Shown piece after piece: positions 3,002 through 54,078 of a stretch of 57,499 nt of DNA. The stretch is taken from positions 1 to 57,499 of the forward strand of contig WQXA01000002.1 in the NCBI GenBank assembly GCA_009785095.1. The letters run 5' to 3'. How positions within the stretch are numbered: position 1 is the stretch's first letter; every line of letters begins with the position of its first letter. The translations under genes were made by a program, and so were the position numbers. The notes below the pieces were generated by a model. That model saw only the letters and a program-made list of their open reading frames with translations. It was not told the origin of the DNA and did no database searches. The DNA is from Candidatus Saccharimonadota bacterium. GTDB taxonomy: Bacteria > Patescibacteriota > Saccharimonadia > Saccharimonadales > Saccharimonadaceae.

Positions 3002-4021
3002 ATGAAGAAAATCAAAGTCAACGTTCTCTACGCCACTAAATATAAGGGACAAGGCGTGGCGACGGCGTTCGAGGAGATGGTGCGTGGCCTAAAAGCGCGC
3101 GACGACGTCAAAATCAAAATCAATAGTTGGCAGAAATCTGATATTATTCACGGCCACTCGACCGACCCGAAATCGGCTTTTCATCTCTGGTTTCGGCGTG
3201 GCAAAAAAGTTTTCACTGCCCACCAGGTTTACGGTTCGATGGACGGCTCTATCAAAGGCGGCAAAGTTGTCGAACGTATCTTCTTCTGGTATGTGCGGCA
3301 CGCTTTCTATAACAGAGTTGATCGGATCGTGGCGGTCAGTGCCATGTCAGCGGATATTTTAAAAGACAAGATGAAAGTCAAAACGCCCATCGTGACCATT
3401 TATAACACTATTGATATGGCGGCGCTCAAAATTACGCCGAGCAAGCGCGCCGCGGCGCGGAAGAAGTTCGGCCTGGCCGAAAATGATTTCGTGGTGGTCG
3501 GAAACGGCCAAACCCAGCCACGCAAACGCATTGACACTTTCGCGAATGTGGCGAAAAACTTACCGGATGTTAAATTCATCTGGGTCGGCGGCTTTAATTT
3601 TGGCGCGGTGGCGGCTAGCACTGGCCGGATGGAAAAAATCATCAAAAACGCGCCCGAAAATGTGACTTGGACAGGCGTGGTGCCACTCGAGATGGCGCGT
3701 GAATATATGGCCGCAGCCGATGTTTTCTTCTTGCCTTCTGATCAGGAAAACCACCCAATGTCGGTGCTCGAGGCCGCCGGCGCAGGACTACCGATAATTT
3801 TGCGCGACATTCCTGAATATGACGACACTTTCCGTGGCGATGCGCTGATGGCGAAGGACGACGCGGGCTTTGTCGAGATTATCGAACGCCTACGCGACAA
3901 CCGTGAATATTACGATGAGGCCAAAACCGGCGCTCAAAAAATCGCCGATCGTTTCGATAGCAAAACTGGCGCCGAGCAATTTGTGGCGCTCTACCGCGAG
4001 CTGTTGGAGGGCGAAAAATGA
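3002..4021 (+). CDS. Glycosyltransferase family 4
   Basis: GNGQTQPRKRIDTF, VFFLPSDQENHPMSVLEAAGAGLPIILRD; ATG at 3002. Confidence 0.85.
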   Translation: MKKIKVNVLYATKYKGQGVATAFEEMVRGLKARDDVKIKINSWQKSDIIHGHSTDPKSAFHLWFRRGKKVFTAHQVYGSMDGSIKGGKVVERIFFWYVRHAFYNRVDRIVAVSAMSADILKDKMKVKTPIVTIYNTIDMAALKITPSKRAAARKKFGLAENDFVVVGNGQTQPRKRIDTFANVAKNLPDVKFIWVGGFNFGAVAASTGRMEKIIKNAPENVTWTGVVPLEMAREYMAAADVFFLPSDQENHPMSVLEAAGAGLPIILRDIPEYDDTFRGDALMAKDDAGFVEIIERLRDNREYYDEAKTGAQKIADRFDSKTGAEQFVALYRELLEGEK

Positions 4022-5295
4022 GAATCGGCCTATTCACCGATAGCTATCATCCGACTAGTAACGGTGTGGTGGTGGTGGTGGATGTGACGCGGCGCGAACT
4101 CGAAAAACTGGGTCACGAGGTCTTTGTCATCGCGCCCGACGGCGGTGTCTTGGAGAAAAACAAATTGCCCGACGACGATCACATTATTCGCCTGCCGGCT
4201 ATTCAATACGATATACAACTGAGTGTCTTTTTCCCGCCTGCCCTACTCAAGAAGATTCGGGCGCTAAAACTCGACATCATCCATTTCATGACGCCGGCAC
4301 AGATCGGCCTGATGGCGGTGCTGGCGGCGCGCAAAACCGGCGCGGTGTTGGTCGGCCAACATACCACCGACACTTATGAATTCAGCAAAGACTATCCCAC
4401 CATGGCGCTGAGCTACATTTTCGGCGGGCTGCTCGGGCCGCTGTTTATAAAATTATCTAGCGAGCAAAGGAGAACTTTTTTCAAATTGTATCTGTCGCCA
4501 GTCGATCGTGATGAGACTGATGAAAAATGGACTCAGCGGTTGGTGGCGGGGCTGATGGTGCTGCTCTATGCTAACTGCGACGGTGTGGTGGCGGTGTCGT
4601 ACAAATCGGCCGATCAGTTGGCTGGATTCGCCGCGCGCTTTGACGAAGAATTGAATCTGTGTGTCATCCCGACCGGTGTTGATATTCTGCCGCCGGCCAA
4701 GAAGTCGGAAATCGAGGCTTTTTGCAAGAAATGGCGCATCACTTCGACGGACGAAGTCATCGTTAATTTTGGGCGCATGGCCGAGGAAAAGAATCTGACG
4801 CTCTTGATCGACATGTTGCCGGAGCTATTAAAGAAGAGACCGCGCGCTAAATTGTTGTTGGCGGGCGATTATATTTACCGTGAGAAGTTGGAGAAAATCG
4901 CCAGCGCCAGCCCGGCGGCGGAGCGGATAATTTTCAGTGGTCGCTATCGTCGCGAAGAAATTCCGACGATTTGCCGGGCGGCCAAAGTGTTTGCTTTTCC
5001 GTCGCTGACCGACACCCAGGCGCTAGTGCTAAACGAGGCGGCCGGCCAGGGTCTGCCGATCGTGATGTGTGACCACGGTGTGAATGATGTATTTCGAGAC
5101 AGCGAGAATGGATTGTTGGCGGCCAACGACGCGGCTGACTTTGCCGATAAAGTAGCGCGAATTCTGTCCGACGATTCTTTGCGGACTCAGTTTAGCAAGC
5201 GTTCGCGCGAACTCGCGGCGGAATTTTCCGAGGAACATCAAACCGAAAAGCTAGTCGAATTCTATCGTGAACTGCTGCGCCAACCGATGAAATAA
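4018..5295 (+). CDS. Glycosyltransferase family 4
   Basis: MRIGLFTDSYHPTSNGVV, FGRMAEEKNL, VFAFPSLTDTQALVLNEAAGQGLPIV. Confidence 0.88.
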   Translation: MRIGLFTDSYHPTSNGVVVVVDVTRRELEKLGHEVFVIAPDGGVLEKNKLPDDDHIIRLPAIQYDIQLSVFFPPALLKKIRALKLDIIHFMTPAQIGLMAVLAARKTGAVLVGQHTTDTYEFSKDYPTMALSYIFGGLLGPLFIKLSSEQRRTFFKLYLSPVDRDETDEKWTQRLVAGLMVLLYANCDGVVAVSYKSADQLAGFAARFDEELNLCVIPTGVDILPPAKKSEIEAFCKKWRITSTDEVIVNFGRMAEEKNLTLLIDMLPELLKKRPRAKLLLAGDYIYREKLEKIASASPAAERIIFSGRYRREEIPTICRAAKVFAFPSLTDTQALVLNEAAGQGLPIVMCDHGVNDVFRDSENGLLAANDAADFADKVARILSDDSLRTQFSKRSRELAAEFSEEHQTEKLVEFYRELLRQPMK

Positions 5296-11721: not shown

Positions 11722-12183
11722 ATGAACATCATCGTTGGCAGCGTCGTAGTCCAGGACGGAAAAATCTTGCTGGTTCAAGAAGCCAGGCCGGCTGTTTACG
11801 GCCAGTGGAATGTCCCGGCTGGCTATTTGGATGAAGGCGAAACGATTGTGTCCGGCGCAATACGAGAGACCAAAGAAGAAACTGGTTACGATGTTGAGCC
11901 GGAGGAGGGGGGCTTGCTTTTGATTAGTGATCCGACGTTCCAAGTCCGTGGCCATGCGATCGTGGTAATTTTATTCAAGATGAAGGTCGTTGGCGGTGAA
12001 TTGGCGTTTGACAAAAACGAAATTTTGGATGCCAAATGGGTGCCGATCGATGAGACTTCTTCCTTAGAATTTCGTGACGGTATCAGGAGGTTACTCGGCG
12101 AAATATTACGTCGCCTCAAGAGCGGCGAGAGCTATCCACTGAGCCTGACGTATGATGCGATCACGCAGAAAGAGGCGGGATGA
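11722..12183 (+). CDS. NUDIX hydrolase
   Basis: GYLDEGETIVSGAIRETKEETGYDVEPEE NUDIX box. Confidence 0.9.
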   Translation: MNIIVGSVVVQDGKILLVQEARPAVYGQWNVPAGYLDEGETIVSGAIRETKEETGYDVEPEEGGLLLISDPTFQVRGHAIVVILFKMKVVGGELAFDKNEILDAKWVPIDETSSLEFRDGIRRLLGEILRRLKSGESYPLSLTYDAITQKEAG

Positions 12184-12683
12184 AAGTTTTGTTCGTCTGC
12201 AACAATACCGTCGGTCGCTCGCAGGCCGCAAAAGCGTTTTACAATCAGTTGACCAATTCACATGACGCGGATGCGGCGGGGGTTGGGCTGAGGCTTCCCG
12301 AGGCCGATACCATGCTCAAGTTTTTTGTGGCAAAGAACGGAGAAGCTGCGATGTACAAAACTCTGCAAGAGATCGGCATTGACATCGGTGATTATCCGCG
12401 CGTGCAGCTAACACCCGAGATGCTTGGGGGGGGGTATGACTTGATAGTGAATATTGCTGACAAGAGTCAAACGCCGAAATGGCTGCGTGGCGACAAAGTA
12501 ATCTGGTGGAATGTTCCTGATCCCGGCCACAAAGAAAATTTTGAGGAGCGCCTAGTGTACTCAAGAGTCACGCGCGATTTGATGCGCGAGCGCGTGAAAA
12601 AGCTGATCGAAATTGAAAAATCCGGTGGGGATTTTCACAAACTCGACGACAATATCGACGGAGGCAAAAATGACAGGAAATGA
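12180..12683 (+). CDS. Low-molecular-weight phosphatase / arsenate reductase-like protein containing a G9 tract
   Basis: MKVLFVCNNTVGRSQAAKAFY N-terminal motif; G9 at 12426-12434 encodes GGG. Confidence 0.78.
   Translation: MKVLFVCNNTVGRSQAAKAFYNQLTNSHDADAAGVGLRLPEADTMLKFFVAKNGEAAMYKTLQEIGIDIGDYPRVQLTPEMLGGGYDLIVNIADKSQTPKWLRGDKVIWWNVPDPGHKENFEERLVYSRVTRDLMRERVKKLIEIEKSGGDFHKLDDNIDGGKNDRK
12426..12434 (+). repeat. G9 homopolymer tract in phosphatase-like CDS
   Basis: ATGCTTGGGGGGGGGTATGAC. Confidence 0.95.
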
Positions 12684-14195: not shown

Positions 14196-16507
<2,312 letters not shown>

Positions 16508-16515
<8 letters not shown>

Positions 16516-22082: not shown

Positions 22083-22568
22083 ATGAAGCAACTTTATGCA
22101 GAAGTGAGTCTAGAAAAACACCTCTACGCCATGTTTGGGCTGCGGATTGACATTAAATCGGTGATCGCTAATAAAATTCCGGTCGGCGCCAGCACCGGAG
22201 CGACGGTGTTTCTGTCTGAAAAAGGTCAACTCTATGTTTTCATCATGACGCATGGCGGGCAGAATCTGGGCGATGTCAAGAAAATTCTAGCGCGGATGAA
22301 TTTAAAACCAGAGCAATTTATGCCGCCCAAGGGAGACAACGGTTATTTCGATCGTGTCGCCACGGTAAAGTTCCGCGAAGTTTTCCCCGGTCGCACGCCG
22401 AAAAACGACGGTGACCTAAAGTTTTATCGCACGGTGGCGCCCTACAATCCGGCGTTAGTGCAAATTTCCGAAGTCCAAAACGGCATCATCAAGCAATACG
22501 ACAGCGACGCTGTCGGCCGCTGGCGCCCCGCGATCAAATTCCAATATCGGCGAATTAGGACGAGCTAG
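22083..22568 (+). CDS. Conserved hypothetical protein
   Basis: 162 aa ORF with good coding character; ATG at 22083. Confidence 0.7.
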   Translation: MKQLYAEVSLEKHLYAMFGLRIDIKSVIANKIPVGASTGATVFLSEKGQLYVFIMTHGGQNLGDVKKILARMNLKPEQFMPPKGDNGYFDRVATVKFREVFPGRTPKNDGDLKFYRTVAPYNPALVQISEVQNGIIKQYDSDAVGRWRPAIKFQYRRIRTS

Positions 22569-22601: not shown

Positions 22602-22631
22602 TTGACAAATGTGCATGGGGGGGGGTATACT
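22602..22631 (+). promoter_or_regulatory. Promoter with a G9 tract filling half of the -35/-10 spacer
   Basis: TTGACA (22602-22607), 18 bp spacer AATGTGCAT+G9, TATACT (22626-22631). Confidence 0.8.
22617..22625 (+). repeat. G9 homopolymer tract in promoter spacer
   Basis: GTGCATGGGGGGGGGTATACT. Confidence 0.95.
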
Positions 22632-22660
22632 CTCAGGGTAAGTTAATTAGGAGAGAGCAT

Positions 22661-22927
22661 ATGAGCCCCGAAGCACAAGGTGACAGGAAACCAAGACAAA
22701 GACCAAATAGGAAACGTGGACGAAAAGATCCTGTAGCGGCAGCCATGGCTGCAAGAATTAGCGGGGCGGCTGGCGGTTTGGGTATTGTTGATGGGGTTCG
22801 TGCGGATGATCAGACAAAGCGGAATGAGGCTGCCGCAGCAGCAAGAGCGGAGGCGGATCGCGTGAGAAGGATGAGTTTCGCAGAACAGGAAGCCCATTAT
22901 GCAGAACTGTACAGTCACCTGTGGTAG
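22661..22927 (+). CDS. Hypothetical small protein with basic N-terminus
   Basis: GGAGAG RBS; MSPEAQGDRKPRQRPNRKRGRKDP; sits under the G9 promoter. Confidence 0.7.
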   Translation: MSPEAQGDRKPRQRPNRKRGRKDPVAAAMAARISGAAGGLGIVDGVRADDQTKRNEAAAAARAEADRVRRMSFAEQEAHYAELYSHLW

Positions 22928-22934
22928 CGATCAG

Positions 22935-23396
22935 TTACTCAACCGTCTCAGCGACCAACTCCCCGCCGATTTTCTCGATGTCGGCTAGGCCGTGTAGATC
23001 GATTATGTTGGTGAATCCGGCTTTTTCTAAAATCTCAGTCGCTCGCGCTGAGCGGGCGCCGCTGCGGCAATGCAAATAAATTTTGCTGTCGTGCGGCAGG
23101 TCGGGCAATTCGCCGGCCTCGATATCTTCGATCGGCCAATTCTCCGCCCCGACGAAATAGCCGGCCGCGTACTCGTCGCTGCGGCGCACGTCGTAAAATT
23201 TGGCGCCGCTCGCGATATCGTCCTGGATCTGCTCGAAAGTCAACTCCGGCGTGGCGGCGGCTCCTTTTTCGGACACACCGGCTACTTCGGCCGGCGCTCT
23301 CTCGGTCGATTCTTCCCCGCCGCGCCCTAGTGATACGCCCACAATCACCCCGCCGGCTACTGTGACGATGGCGATGACGATGATAATTTTGCGCAT
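22935..23396 (-). CDS. Membrane-anchored rhodanese-domain protein
   Basis: FYDVRRSDEYAAGYFVGAENWPIEDI and IYLHCRSGARSARATEIL. Confidence 0.9.
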   Translation of the reverse strand: MRKIIIVIAIVTVAGGVIVGVSLGRGGEESTERAPAEVAGVSEKGAAATPELTFEQIQDDIASGAKFYDVRRSDEYAAGYFVGAENWPIEDIEAGELPDLPHDSKIYLHCRSGARSARATEILEKAGFTNIIDLHGLADIEKIGGELVAETVE

Positions 23397-26452: not shown

Positions 26453-27133
26453 ATGAAAATTAGTAAAAGCACGCTTTTCATGATAGTCGTGGCCTTGTCG
26501 GTGACGGTTTTGATCGTCAGCAACATCGCTAGCACCAAATTGTTCGATTTTTTCGGGACGGGTTTGGTTTGGGACGGCGGCGCGATTTTGTTTCCTTTAG
26601 CGTATGTTTTGGGCGACGTAGTGGTGGAAATTTACGGTTTCAAAGTAGCGCGCAAAATCGTGTTGGTGACTTTCGCGATGAATTTGCTGGCGGTTTTGGC
26701 GCTCTGGATTGTGCAGATTTTGCCGCCGGGCGTTGGTTGGGGCAACCAAGCGGCCTACGAAGCCATCATCGGTTTCATGCCGCGATTGGTGGCCGGCAGC
26801 CTAGTGGCCTACGCCGTCGGCCAGATCGCCAATGCGTTTGTTTTCGCCAAAATCAAGGTCGCCACCAAAGGCCGCCGATTGTGGCTCAGAGCGCTCGGAT
26901 CGAGCCTCGTCGGCAACCTCATCGACACGCTGATTTTTGTGAGCGTCGCTTTTTACGGCGTGATTTCTCCCGTCCAATTCGTCGGCCTAATCTGCATCGC
27001 CTACGCTACAAAAATGATCGGCGAAACGCTGCTGCTACCGGTGACATACCGCGCGGTCAAATTCATGAAAAAAGTCACGGGCGATGATCATTATGATAAA
27101 AAACTAAGGTTGCGCAATGTCTTTTTCAAATGA
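26453..27133 (+). CDS. Queuosine precursor transporter (YhhQ family)
   Basis: FPLAYVLGDVVVEIYGFKVARKIV; overlaps tgt. Confidence 0.85.
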   Translation: MKISKSTLFMIVVALSVTVLIVSNIASTKLFDFFGTGLVWDGGAILFPLAYVLGDVVVEIYGFKVARKIVLVTFAMNLLAVLALWIVQILPPGVGWGNQAAYEAIIGFMPRLVAGSLVAYAVGQIANAFVFAKIKVATKGRRLWLRALGSSLVGNLIDTLIFVSVAFYGVISPVQFVGLICIAYATKMIGETLLLPVTYRAVKFMKKVTGDDHYDKKLRLRNVFFK

Positions 27134-28610
27134 TCGGAAAGATCCGAGAGCGGAAGAATTTTTTAGTTTTGAAATAACAGCTCGGTACGGTGATTTGGCG
27201 CGGGCGGGGGTGATCCACGCGCCGCATGGTTCGATTGAGACACCGACGTTTACGGTGGTGGGCACGCACGCGGCGGTGAAATGTTTGACGCCGAACGACC
27301 TAAGGGCGGTTGGTGTGCAGGTGATGCTGAGCAACGGTTATCACCTGCTCCGGCGGGCGGTTATGATCGATGCGGCCGGCGGTCTCGCGGAATTCAACGG
27401 CTGGCGCGCGCCGACGATGACCGATAGCGGCGGCTTTCAAATCATGTCGCTCGGCTCGGGACTAGGCAAAATTGTGTCGATGAGTGAAGAGGACGGCGCT
27501 ATTTCGAGCAACGTTTTTTCTTCATCGTCGGCTCGATCCGAGCAATCCGAGCCGGACGACATCCCCATGCTTGATAAATCAAGCGGGGGCCCTGTCGTTC
27601 GGTCGGCTTCATCGGCTCTTCGCGCGAATGAATATGATTCAGAAAAAAATTGCTCGAACGCGCCTGGCAGAGCTCGAAACTTAACAGAAGTCGATGACGA
27701 GGGCGTGACTTTTCGCGATCCGTATCACGGGCGGATTGTCAAATTCACGCCGGAGCTGTCTATCGCGACGCAGCACAAAATCGGCGCTGACGTGATGATG
27801 GCTTTTGATGAGCTGACTTCGTTTGGCGATGATTACGATTACAATGTGGAAAGTTTAGAGCGGACGCGAATTTGGGCGGAGCGCAGTTTGCGCGAACATG
27901 TACGACAGGCAAATCTGCGGCGCGGCAAACCATACCAAGCATTATTCGGCGTCCTCCAAGGCGGCCGCTGGCAGGATTTACGCGAAAAAGCCGCGCACGA
28001 TCTCGCGGCGATGCGAATCCGCGGCGCGGAATTTGACGGTTTTGGTTTGGGCGGCGCTTTTGAAAAGGAACGCCTGGGCGAAACTATTAAATGGATGACG
28101 CGGATTTTGCCGGAGAACAAACCGCGGCATTTGCTCGGCCTGAGCAAACCCGACGATATTTTTGTCGGCGTCGAAAATGGTTGCGATACGTTCGATTGCG
28201 TGGCGCCGACGCGCGAGGCGCGGCACGGGCGAATTTATACTTTGGATGGTGATATCAACTTGCGCCGCAGTGAATTCGCGAGCGACGAACGACCGCTCGA
28301 TCCGGAATGTGATTGCCCGGCTTGTTGTCCTATTCGTCATTGCGAGGAGCCGAGGGCGACGCGGCAATCTAGTGGATTGCTTCGCGGTGCTCGCAATGAC
28401 AATAATTATTTCTCTCGTGCCACATTGCGCGCCATGCTCAAATCATCCGAACCGGACGAAAAGGCTCGCGCCCTTTCCCTACTTTCCAGGCATAACGTGC
28501 GTTTTATTATTCGGTTGACCGAGCAAATTCGGGCGTCGATCATTGACGGAACTTTTGATGAATTAAAAAGCTTTTGGCTGAAACGATATTATGGTACAAT
28601 AAAGTCATGA
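27117..28610 (+). CDS. tgt: Queuine tRNA-ribosyltransferase with two in-frame repeat-derived insertions
   Basis: TDSGGFQIMSLG, ALFGVLQGGRWQDLREKAA, DCVAPTREARHGRIYT, CDCPACC. Confidence 0.92.
   Translation: MSFSNDRKDPRAEEFFSFEITARYGDLARAGVIHAPHGSIETPTFTVVGTHAAVKCLTPNDLRAVGVQVMLSNGYHLLRRAVMIDAAGGLAEFNGWRAPTMTDSGGFQIMSLGSGLGKIVSMSEEDGAISSNVFSSSSARSEQSEPDDIPMLDKSSGGPVVRSASSALRANEYDSEKNCSNAPGRARNLTEVDDEGVTFRDPYHGRIVKFTPELSIATQHKIGADVMMAFDELTSFGDDYDYNVESLERTRIWAERSLREHVRQANLRRGKPYQALFGVLQGGRWQDLREKAAHDLAAMRIRGAEFDGFGLGGAFEKERLGETIKWMTRILPENKPRHLLGLSKPDDIFVGVENGCDTFDCVAPTREARHGRIYTLDGDINLRRSEFASDERPLDPECDCPACCPIRHCEEPRATRQSSGLLRGARNDNNYFSRATLRAMLKSSEPDEKARALSLLSRHNVRFIIRLTEQIRASIIDGTFDELKSFWLKRYYGTIKS
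27508..27660. repeat. Palindromic element inside tgt
   Basis: Inverted ends CGAGCAACGTTTTTTC...AGAAAAAAATTGCTCG; central CCCCATGCTTGATAAATCAAGCGGGGG. Confidence 0.65.
28331..28407. repeat. Palindromic element inside tgt (zinc-site loop)
   Basis: CGTCATTGCGAGGAGCCGAGGG...GATTGCTTCGCGGTGCTCGCAATGACAA; encodes CHCEEPRATRQSSGLLRGARNDNN... (RHCEEPRATRQSSGLLRGARNDNN). Confidence 0.8.
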
Positions 28611-39860: not shown

Positions 39861-41179
39861 TTATTCTCCCCCAGGCCAATCACCCGACTGAGAACATGGG
39901 TACCTTCCAGGTCTTCGATACGCCGTTCGACAAGTTGAATGTTAACATCCGGATAAAGTTCTTTGATGCGAGCGATTGGTGACATAGCTGCCACTTTGCC
40001 AGCCAGGCAGCTATAAGGCTGAATGATGACTATGTGCTTGACGCCGTTTTCGATAGCTTCAACAATTTCTGCTGATAGCAGCGGACCTTCGCCGCCCGAC
40101 CACTCACCTCGAATCATCCTTTTCTGGTACATGTCCATGAATTTGACATGGGGTTCAAAGTGTTTGGATTTTCTCATGGCGCGTCGAACCGGCGCCCGAT
40201 ATCGCTCAATAAGATGAATCGCCAGCTCAGCCATCACACTATAGCCAAGTGGTGTGCGAAACGCTTTCCGCCTGTGAATGTTACCAGCAATAGATTACAT
40301 AAAGAAATTCAACATATCCGGCAGCTCTACTTCGCGGCCGATGTCTTCGAGTCTTTCAACAATATGATAGTTATAATCTGCCTGATAATTAGCAAATATC
40401 TCCCCTATGACAAGAGTCTTGTCCTTGGGAGTAACCCCCCCCCTGCGCTCTAAACCATCAAAACTGTCAACTATGTATTTGATAGCGGCGACATATTCTC
40501 GCCAGCCCCTAGTGGCAATAATACCTAGACGACCCTGCATTCGACTGAGACGCTCTTTGAGCCCCTCAATACACTCTACAGTGAGCCTATCTGTTGAGCC
40601 TGGTTCGACTTCATATGGCCGCGTGCTGTTGGCGCATTGCTGTAGGGTATCAGCAAGGATAGTAGCCTTGGCTAGCCCAAAAAACATATCTAGGGACGGT
40701 ATCATTCTTGTGGTGCGACGGCTGCCTCCATCATTAAGTGATGGCGGCACCAAATCCATGTCGTTATCGCCTGGCACGAGGGATAACAGCATCAGATCCA
40801 TGTCGACGTTGGCTTCATCCAGACCGTTGCCTATAATGAACGAGTAGTTTGAGGCGCGGCATGGACCGCCAGTCGCCGTAATTAAGGCTACCCTTTCCTT
40901 GCCGTCCAAATTCTTAGAATGATGATCTAATAGGGCACCGGCAACAGCCGTAGCTGGTCCACAAATCTCTATTGGCATGTGATCCAGACCACGCTGAATA
41001 GCTGTGGCACCGATAGCATTTTCCACCTCAACTGCGTTAAAGCCAGCTTGCCTTAGCAGCTCAGTATACAGCGGCATAGTGTACGGATTCATTGGAGGAA
41101 CTAAATACTCAACTCCGTCCCTGGGCTGGGTCGGTTCCCCTAGAAATTTTTTTGATAGTTTAGCTATTATTTCGTACAA
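39857..41179 (-). CDS. 2-hydroxyacyl-CoA dehydratase-like subunit, interrupted by in-frame TAA at 40295-40297
   Basis: Two ORFs (41179..40295 and 40237..39857) in the same frame; MPIEICGPATAVAGALLDHH and IIQPYSCLAGKVAAMSPIARIKELYP. Confidence 0.65.
40435..40443 (-). repeat. G9 (coding strand) homopolymer tract in dehydratase-like CDS
   Basis: GAGCGCAGGGGGGGGGTTACTCCC on coding strand. Confidence 0.95.
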
Positions 41180-49920: not shown

Positions 49921-50609
49921 TTAAGAGCCCACCTTGATTCTCGGCGGGATTTGACCGCCTTCAGGGTCGAATTTGCTGTAATTGATTTCTTGAGGAATAG
50001 GTTGACTTGTCTGTAAATTTCTCACTCTCATACTGAGTGCCAACCAGGTCGCCAACGAATGGTCGTCTGAGGGGTGGAGACCCGATACTGCTATCGCACC
50101 ACCCTCTACAATAACTCCACCAGTTCGTACCGCGAAGCCACCTAGTATATGCGACAAATCGTGGCCTTCTATATCTACTTCGCCCGCTTCTGCTGAGGCC
50201 GTATTACGTCCCAAGGCAATTGCGCCCAAGGCTTTTATTACCGCAATTTCTTCAGGATTTCTGCCCTTTTCATCTTCACCGTACCCCTCAGGTTCGCGTA
50301 GCGTTATCGCGCCTTTAATTAGATTCTGCCGCAACGCCTGGAGTACCCGCGGGTCAACGTCAACTTCTACTCCCTCTCCTCTAGAAAGCGCATCATCAAT
50401 CTTCAATGCTGTCTCGATCATGCCCAGCCTGGTTGCTTTAATGGAGAGCTTCTGAAGTTCTTCCCGACTAAGTTCTAGGGGGGGGTCTCCAAAGGCCGTT
50501 CATTTGAAACGTAGACAGCAAATACGGAGACATTCTCATTGCCGGCCGGAGATGAATGAACGGGAAGAACATCCTTCGCGTCTTTCATCTGATTTTGCAT
50601 GTCGCTCAT
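49921..50609 (-). CDS. Hypothetical protein, candidate phase-variable gene in OFF frame
   Basis: ATG at 50609 frame ends ...NERPLETPP* at a C8 tract. C9 gives ...ETPPLELSREELQKLSIKATRLGMIETALKIDD... through to 49921. Confidence 0.72.
50478..50485 (-). repeat. C8 (coding strand) homopolymer tract
   Basis: TTCTAGGGGGGGGTCTCC on + strand. Confidence 0.95.
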
Positions 50610-52062: not shown

Positions 52063-54078
52063 TTAGATCTTGCCCCTTCGTCTCCTAGGGGCGGCATCTG
52101 TCGCAGCTACTGCAGCTTCGCCCACACTTGTCTCGCCAAAATGTTCGACCTCCAGGCGTTGCCGCCAAGATTCGTGAGCGCTCCTCACACTCACCGAGTC
52201 TGGACGCCCCATATGTTTTTTGCGTTTAGTGAGTTCCTTAATGGCCGCCACCAGTCTGCTTATGTTGGATGACGCCTTATGACCTGCCTTGAATAGCCAA
52301 TGAGCGATTTTGCCATCCCGCATAGCGGTACGATAATCCTCGGTTACACATTGGATTTCCATAGGTAGCTCAACGCCGTCATCCCTCGTGTAGATAAAGG
52401 TTATTTTAGCGACGTGCACGTCGTCATTTGTGTATTCTATGAATTTCTCACCTTCTCCCTCTCCCCATTTGAATTCAATCATGCCTTGTATGGTTTCTTC
52501 CGAAAGACCTATCTTAGACAAATGAGTGGAAAAATCCTCCGTGAATTTTTTTGTTCCGCGGATTTGAATAGCTTGTTTTCGAGAAGGCGCTGGTTTTGAC
52601 CTATATCTAGAAGGGTCTATCGACTGAGCCTCGAGCAGATTCCCAACCATTCGCCCAAATATAACGTGCTGGTCGCTTTCATCCTGTGCCATGACTGTGA
52701 CACCCACAATATCCATTATTAGTGTGGTAATGTCTGGGCTATTCTCTATTTCGTCTAAGATCTTCTCCGGAGTCTTTCCAGTCTTATCAGCCTCCTTCTT
52801 GACGTATTGCTTGATTTTCCAGCCAAGAGAACCGTCACTTTTTATGCGGTAACGAACTCGGTTCGAATCTCCTGCAGAACCCTCAATCCAACCTTCACCA
52901 TATGTGATTCTGGACGGGGACTCGTCACTTTTAATTAAAGGATTAGTAGCAGCCGTAGAGCCAGATAATTCTTCTAAAACACTTTCCACGGCTGAATTGA
53001 TATTTTCAGCCCCTGGCAAGTCTTTTTTAATTCGGCGGGCTAGTTCTAAACATCGCCGATCCGTATGAGTTCCAAAGGTCAGTCTTATTTCCTTTGCCAT
53101 GCCGTCTAGTGCTATAAACAGGGCATCGAACCCCTGGCTTTCCGCTAAGTGTGCTAGAACCTCTTGGGCGAGCATTACTTCACGGAAAACCACCGGATTA
53201 TTGAATTTATCCCTTTCGGTTGGGTCAGATAGAATTTGCGTCGCCCTGATAAGATCAGCAAGAGCTTCAACTGCCCTAATTAATGAGTTTTCCATATTGG
53301 TATCATGCAACACGTTCCGCATCCGGTCTGCCTGGACTAGATTGCTGACATCGGCTGTCGACCATGTAGATTCATCAATTGGTTTATGTTCCACTTGCTT
53401 TAACACAAAATCCACCAGACCCCCCTCAGGCAGGACAAGTTTCCCAAACTTAAACTTGGTATTCAGTTGTCCGTAGAAGTGCTTTATAAAATCTGCGATT
53501 TTTCGTCGGTGTCTCCCGAGATCATATGTATAGGTTAATTCACGCTCAGGTGATAGCTCGCATGGAAAAATCTCATCAAATGGCTGCTTGCTTTTCAGAT
53601 GGTTTTTGTATGGGTTGTCATGAATGTTCTCAGGCTCGACATAAGAATGGGGGGGGGATTTAGCGAACCAACTACCATCACCCGTTTCGTAGTGATTCCT
53701 AGTCCACTCGCAAAACATTTTCCAAGCAGAACGGAATATTTCCCCAGTTGCTGGAATGAGCCGTAAGTCTTCACGAGTACCATCAAATATCGGGCCTAAC
53801 ATGGCTGTATAATAAGTGAACGGATTTAGCTTTCTATCTTCGCCGTCAATACTACTATCAACGCCAAATTCTTTGAGCAATTGATTTATTAAATTTAGCC
53901 GTTCATATAAAGCATCTCGTTCCTCAGGACTTTTAAACGGATAATTCTCGTAAATCTTTATAACCAGCTCAGTAGCTTCAAGAATAATTGCTTCTCATGA
54001 TTGGATGGCAGCCGCTTTGTAACGGGCGTGACGCCCACGTGGGCGTCCTCCTCTAGGAGTACTTTTCTGGGGATCCAT
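52063..54078 (-). CDS. Large RelA/SpoT-synthetase-like protein with C9 tract and an in-frame TGA at codon 28
   Basis: VRYRIKSDGSLGWKIKQYV, DIVGVTVMAQDESDQHVIF, LPMEIQCVTEDYRTAMRDGKIAHWLFKAG resemble RelA/SpoT synthetase motifs. ATG at 54078 is in frame through TGA (53995-53997). Confidence 0.55.
53649..53657 (-). repeat. C9 (coding strand) homopolymer tract in RelA/SpoT-like ORF
   Basis: AAATCCCCCCCCCATTCT on coding strand, encodes SPPH. Confidence 0.95.

Follow-up and report, generated by a model that had tools for sequence, protein, structure and literature searches.

Nine consecutive G residues lie between the -35 and -10 elements of a putative promoter in a Candidatus Saccharimonadota bacterium (GCA_009785095.1), raising the question of whether slippage in such a tract could switch transcription of the small gene downstream. 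An earlier note on this DNA had proposed as much, describing transcriptional phase variation of a small basic protein. The window analysed here is a stretch of 57,499 nucleotides corresponding to contig 2 of an assembly of 781 kb (0.78 Mb) in 38 contigs, and the arrangement was followed from this one promoter to the rest of the genome and its relatives.

A near-consensus promoter around a G tract

The two hexamers, TTGACA and TATACT, are located around the G-containing 18-bp spacer exactly where the note had placed them (Table 1). Together, they match the sigma-70 consensus at 11 of 12 positions and form the top-scoring promoter of the region; both elements are recognisable, and a G homopolymer of at least eight bases fits entirely between them. 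Tract length sets the spacing of this promoter, which is 17 bp with G8, 18 bp with G9, 19 bp with G10 and 20 bp with G11; gain or loss of one G therefore gives 19 or 17 bp, as originally proposed. Ordinary promoters of the same genome (n = 49) peak at 17 bp (21/49), and one-base changes of the tract would shift the window promoter across this functional range.

Table 1. Coordinates of the promoter, the gene that it precedes and the neighbouring genes, in positions of the window.
Feature	Position	Strand	Remark
161-aa conserved protein gene, upstream	22083-22568	+	synteny anchor
-35 hexamer TTGACA	22602-22607	+	6/6 consensus match
Promoter spacer, 18 bp, AATGTGCAT + G9	22608-22625	+	AATGTGCAT-GGGGGGGGG
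Alternative ATG overlapping the G9 tract	22615-22617	+	
G9 homopolymer, proposed slippage tract	22617-22625	+	last nine spacer bases
-10 hexamer TATACT	22626-22631	+	5/6 consensus match; directly abuts the G9 tract
Expected transcription start	22637-22640	+	6-9 nt past the -10; inferred from promoter geometry
AGGAGA, Shine-Dalgarno-like	22649-22654	+	6 nt ahead of ATG 22661
88-aa basic orphan ORF	22661-22927	+	ATG at 22661; GC3 0.41
Rhodanese-domain protein gene	22935-23396	-	convergent

If transcription started as expected, the tract itself would stay untranscribed. This geometry bears on a translational alternative, in which the reading frame opened by the ATG at 22615, rather than the promoter spacing, is switched. 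With G8 or G11, that frame would join the 88-aa ORF to give an N-terminally extended product of 103-104 aa, with G9 (after 8 codons) or G10 it stops early, and other tracts in the genome often fall inside 5' coding sequence. The near-perfect promoter, however, would put the transcript start 3' of the tract; moreover, a good Shine-Dalgarno sequence precedes ATG 22661 and none lies ahead of ATG 22615, and the tract shares its position against the -10 hexamer with the other poly-G promoters described below. Translational switching is thus a quite unlikely account of this site.

The product is basic and has the Arg/Lys-rich N-terminus attributed to it, with a pI of 10.2 and a net charge of +5.5 over the first 25 residues; it is hydrophilic (GRAVY -0.91), and no domain was found in it. 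No Pfam, PHROGs or PADLOC family was matched, no homologue was detected across 80 family genomes, viral contigs and phages, and an NCBIfam anti-sigma match was set aside as sub-threshold (16 bits, where the cut-off is 100). Because the ORF has no homologue, its coding status rests on the Shine-Dalgarno-like sequence and the ORF itself; reading frame 1 is the best of the six, and its codon score is negative relative to housekeeping genes. A C-terminal signal shared with a 91-aa orphan (both proteins end in LW) was considered and rejected, being absent from other tract-controlled proteins.

Poly-G and poly-C tracts in the genome and its relatives

Runs of at least eight Gs on either strand number 102 genome-wide, comprising 96 of nine or more and 6 of exactly eight, and exact G7 runs occur only twice. 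By our own arithmetic, independent bases at 25.5% G would yield about 61 runs of G7, 16 of G8 and 5 of at least G9. Tract lengths in this genome are bimodal, with short runs depleted and lengths of 9-10 strongly enriched, and those of two congeners (G001 and G002) likewise peak at 9-10. Within the window, G runs of 8-9 are found at 12426, 16186, 22617, 30784, 48377, 50478 and 53649 and a C9 run at 40435, together with a single G6 and a single C6; runs of seven are absent. The tracts are also strongly co-oriented per contig (contigs C1 to C33 of the assembly; for example, C1 11+/2-, C3 6+/0- and C12 0+/6-), as if the G-rich strands tracked the leading strand or gene direction.

Promoters were sought around 100 tracts on both strands, with the spacer required to contain the tract, shuffled flanks as the control and a score of at least 10 as the threshold. 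Poly-G spacers, in which the G strand is the non-template strand, reached this score at 9 of 100 tracts (0.26 expected), and poly-C spacers at 8 of 100 (0.22 expected). Two further poly-G promoters have TTGCAA as their -35 element, and approximately 20 promoters of this genome have spacers that contain poly-G or poly-C. The typical poly-G form is TTGACAAAnnnnnn-G9/10-TAnACT, where the tract abuts the -10, and the typical poly-C form is TTGACAnnn-C9/10-attgtgn-TATAAT, where it stands directly behind the -35. Both classes are present in G001 and G002. The pattern TTGACA-N5..15-G7 has 10 matches (8 places) in the genome, compared with one for the reversed pattern; of 60 relatives searched, 11 more genomes contain TTGACA followed at a distance by G7, with a single match of the reversed control in G001 and none elsewhere. 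Spacers that bear a tract span 16 to 20 bp. The spacing of poly-C promoters is mostly 19-20, and many of them may therefore be weak as assembled. Isolated poly-G spacers of the same form occur in many phyla among the matches listed from a public genome collection, so the architecture is not unique to this lineage.

These numbers speak to the possibility that a random G run simply fell between two promoter-like hexamers or arose in assembly. Sequencing of poly-G is known to be problematic, and contig ends fall at a few tracts; chance or artefact would nonetheless have to account for 102 tracts with meaningful flanks, 17 of them in near-consensus promoters versus 0.5 expected, for the recurrence of the pattern in two congeners and further members of the family at near-zero control counts, and for reading frames that continue unbroken through tens of tracts. 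The tract counts largely refute this explanation, which we consider hardly credible. Contig ends coincide with tracts in the two congeners (5 observed versus about 0.35 expected in each), and no such enrichment was seen within 75 bp of contig ends in the assembly studied here (1 versus 0.58 expected). As proof of mixed tract lengths these breaks were rejected, being suggestive in two congeners and absent here; the enrichment could stem from difficult sequencing.

In a sample of the phylum, most genomes have 0-3 runs of at least nine, and only the genome studied here exceeds 15. Within the family, G001 has 52 tracts, G002 56, G029 61 and G008 50, a few others are rich, and the remaining genomes are mostly at or near zero, many having none. 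The excess of long G/C tracts, the depletion of intermediate lengths and the placement in promoters and 5' coding sequence are those of a phasome. The mismatch repair domain MutS_I (PF01624) was found in 0 of 121 family genomes, the control being positive in 11 of 14 genomes. MutS loss does not explain why some family members are rich in tracts, because tract-poor relatives are also without MutS. Further afield, a Rickettsiales MAG (Gx485_bin9) has 116 G tracts of at least nine in about 0.9 Mb and an Alphaproteobacteria MAG (Emb289P3bin18) 43 in about 0.8 Mb, possibly representing independent phasomes in symbiont-like lineages.

Locus turnover and the genes under tracts

The 161-aa protein encoded upstream shares 68-75% identity with its counterparts in three relatives. 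In G001, ABC-transporter genes directly follow its gene; in the window, the 88-aa, rhodanese and 96-aa genes intervene, and the rhodanese-domain gene is missing at the corresponding place in G001. G001 and G002 instead have a poly-G promoter on the other side of the 161-aa gene, where it drives different small orphans (91 and 127 aa). This orthologous promoter pair, aligned over 595 bp at 72% identity, has G10 and a 19-bp spacer in G001 versus G9 and an 18-bp spacer in G002. Although the difference is between species and at a neighbouring locus, it is the nearest approach to an observed tract change that the genomes offer. A promoter similar to that of the window, with G10, is found at C3:3168 of G002; it was rejected as the orthologue of the window promoter, the gene upstream being a different one (an rRNA-dimethyltransferase-like ORF).

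A slippage-prone spacer, as suggested, is the reading with the best support: it is backed by the architecture, which recurs at some 20 promoters in the genome and also in congeners, by the lengths of 9-10, by the missing MutS and by the one-G difference between orthologous promoters. The same observations bear on whether the G tract is a fixed promoter element or a relic, tolerated or bound as a constant and without useful switching. Poly-G spacers share sequence beyond the tract (TTGACAAA...), which could be a recognition motif, and spacings of 18-19 bp are common among them. A constant element is nevertheless difficult to reconcile with tract lengths that vary by single Gs across loci and between orthologues, with the 16 to 20 bp range of the spacers, with the presence of the same tracts inside coding sequence and in reverse orientation, or with the missing MutS, and we regard this explanation as unlikely.

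Coding tracts, translated in frame as Gly or Pro codons, are found in 54 ORFs, and in 36 of these the tract lies within the initial fifth of the reading frame (p about 1e-13). Around ten more lie in frames that are short at present and would extend to 100-700 codons if one G were gained or lost; judged from the ORFs rather than from homologues, these look like OFF states. In the window, candidate translational switches are provided by G9 tracts at 12426, within an arsenate-reductase/LMW-phosphatase-like ORF (12180-12683), at 16186, within a methyltransferase ORF (15832-16515), and at 40435 (-) and 53649, within ORFs 40295-41179 (-) and 52063-53880 (-). At the G8 tract at 50478, one base more or fewer would join frames into an ORF of about 216-239 aa on the minus strand, which looks like an OFF-state gene.

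Genes under tracts are mostly orphans. The products of promoter-controlled genes mostly lack a Pfam family, the exceptions being an HTH protein, an inositol-phosphatase-like protein, a phosphoribosyltransferase and a kinase-like protein, together with an aldolase in G001; among the products of the coding-tract set are a reverse transcriptase, a Nudix protein and a methyltransferase, as well as several proteins with lipoprotein-like N-termini. Median GC3 is 0.44 in both the promoter and the coding tract sets, compared with 0.62 in 155 other ORFs (p = 2e-7 and 4e-13 for the two sets). Tract-controlled genes look like a separate gene pool, either fast-evolving or acquired.

Several individual cases were noted along the way. 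The gene at L118:3363-4179 seems to be doubly switched: one tract, at 4179, lies in its poly-C promoter spacer, and another, at 3905, falls on codon 60 of the same ORF. The reverse transcriptase ORF (L116:2576, on contig C17) has a G13 tract at codon 176, and its relative in G002 (L158) has G9, four bases fewer, at the aligned place. The ORFs L113:1944-2519 (-) and L120:2242-2829 (-), both small and membrane-protein-like, have similar N-termini; one is under a poly-C promoter and the other has an in-frame tract at codon 84. In the window, a 497-aa queuine tRNA-ribosyltransferase-like ORF (27117-28610) contains extra in-frame stretches, one of which resembles RHCEEPRATRQSSGLLRGARND repeats in the ORF translation.

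Proposed mechanism and comparison with known systems

We propose, with a probability of roughly 0.78, that the site is a sigma-70-type promoter contingency locus of the porA/tp0126 type, controlling the 88-aa gene within a large phasome. The G9 tract would be hypermutable, and replication slippage would change the distance between -35 and -10 by one base per step; such slippage would go uncorrected because MutS is absent. Recognition by the sigma factor would follow the spacing and so set transcription of the 88-aa gene in a graded, reversible and heritable manner, that is, by transcriptional phase variation. The promoter would be one unit of a phasome made up of about 20 spacer-tract promoters and dozens of genes with tracts in their 5' coding sequence. 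To our knowledge, known promoters of the poly-G spacer kind govern surface proteins; the 88-aa protein does not look like one, which counts against the assignment to the porA/tp0126 type. Since most tract-controlled genes are orphans with aberrant codon composition, our guess is that it is a dispensable host- or phage-interaction factor, useful to only part of the population.

The Saccharibacteria lineage is thought to be episymbiotic, and simple-repeat phase variation has been described chiefly in pathogens exposed to animal immunity. On a broader reading, to which we give about even odds, a Saccharibacteria genus keeps a dedicated phase-variable gene pool, with approximately 50-100 poly-G/C tracts per genome diversifying an episymbiont without mismatch repair. 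Its tracts, kept at 9-10 bases, would occupy promoter spacers, in either orientation, and the 5' coding sequence of orphans that have a distinct codon composition and turn over fast, and the combinatorial diversification would perhaps be directed against bacterial hosts, host defences or phages. If true, phase variation would extend to bacteria with reduced genomes that probably live on other bacteria, and about 100 switches, some 20 of them promoters, would point to a testable arms race between bacteria. The poly-G and poly-C spacers also provide a large natural series for measuring spacer length against promoter strength, and the tracts single out many orphan genes that lack annotation as likely interaction factors.

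A search of open papers for homopolymer phase variation turned up no description of it in Saccharibacteria or Patescibacteria, and a phasome of such density in Saccharibacteria seems, in that literature, to be unreported. The only repeat-based hypervariation that the search yielded for a CPR bacterium is a hypervariable repeat gene of Gracilibacterium BD1-5 (PMC6851277), which differs in being a 9-mer array in one gene rather than a set of homopolymer switches.

Among single promoters, porA of Neisseria meningitidis has a poly-G tract between -35 and -10 and is expressed in the order 11G > 10G > 9G (PMC3639595). The parallel with porA and opc drawn in the earlier note holds for porA, where a G homopolymer likewise occupies a sigma-70-type spacer; porA, however, encodes a major outer membrane protein, whereas the window gene is an 88-aa orphan of a Saccharibacterium without MutS. 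The C tract of the opc promoter, described as extending into the -35 region (PMC7864442), resembles the poly-C class found here, with C residues just past the -35, but in this genome TTGACA is intact and the C tract lies wholly in the spacer. In Treponema pallidum tp0126, poly-G also separates -35 from -10, and transcription is best at 17 nt (PMC7864442); its target is again an outer membrane protein, and the window promoter, at 18 bp with G9, would need G8 to reach 17. The predicted polarity, with 17 bp stronger and 19 bp weaker, fits both tp0126 and the 17-bp mode of ordinary promoters. Given the order seen for porA, the optimal spacing cannot be taken for granted when the spacer DNA is poly-G, and a G-rich spacer may shift it.

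At the level of whole genomes, the closest likeness is to the phasomes of Neisseria and Campylobacter, in which many G/C homopolymers likewise occupy promoters and 5' coding sequence; for the meningococcus, the title of one paper gives 115 phase-variable genes (PMC5084427). The system described here differs from these in having about 100 tracts in 0.78 Mb, in belonging to a candidate-phylum lineage, and in its targets, which are mostly low-GC3 orphans rather than known surface-modifying enzymes.
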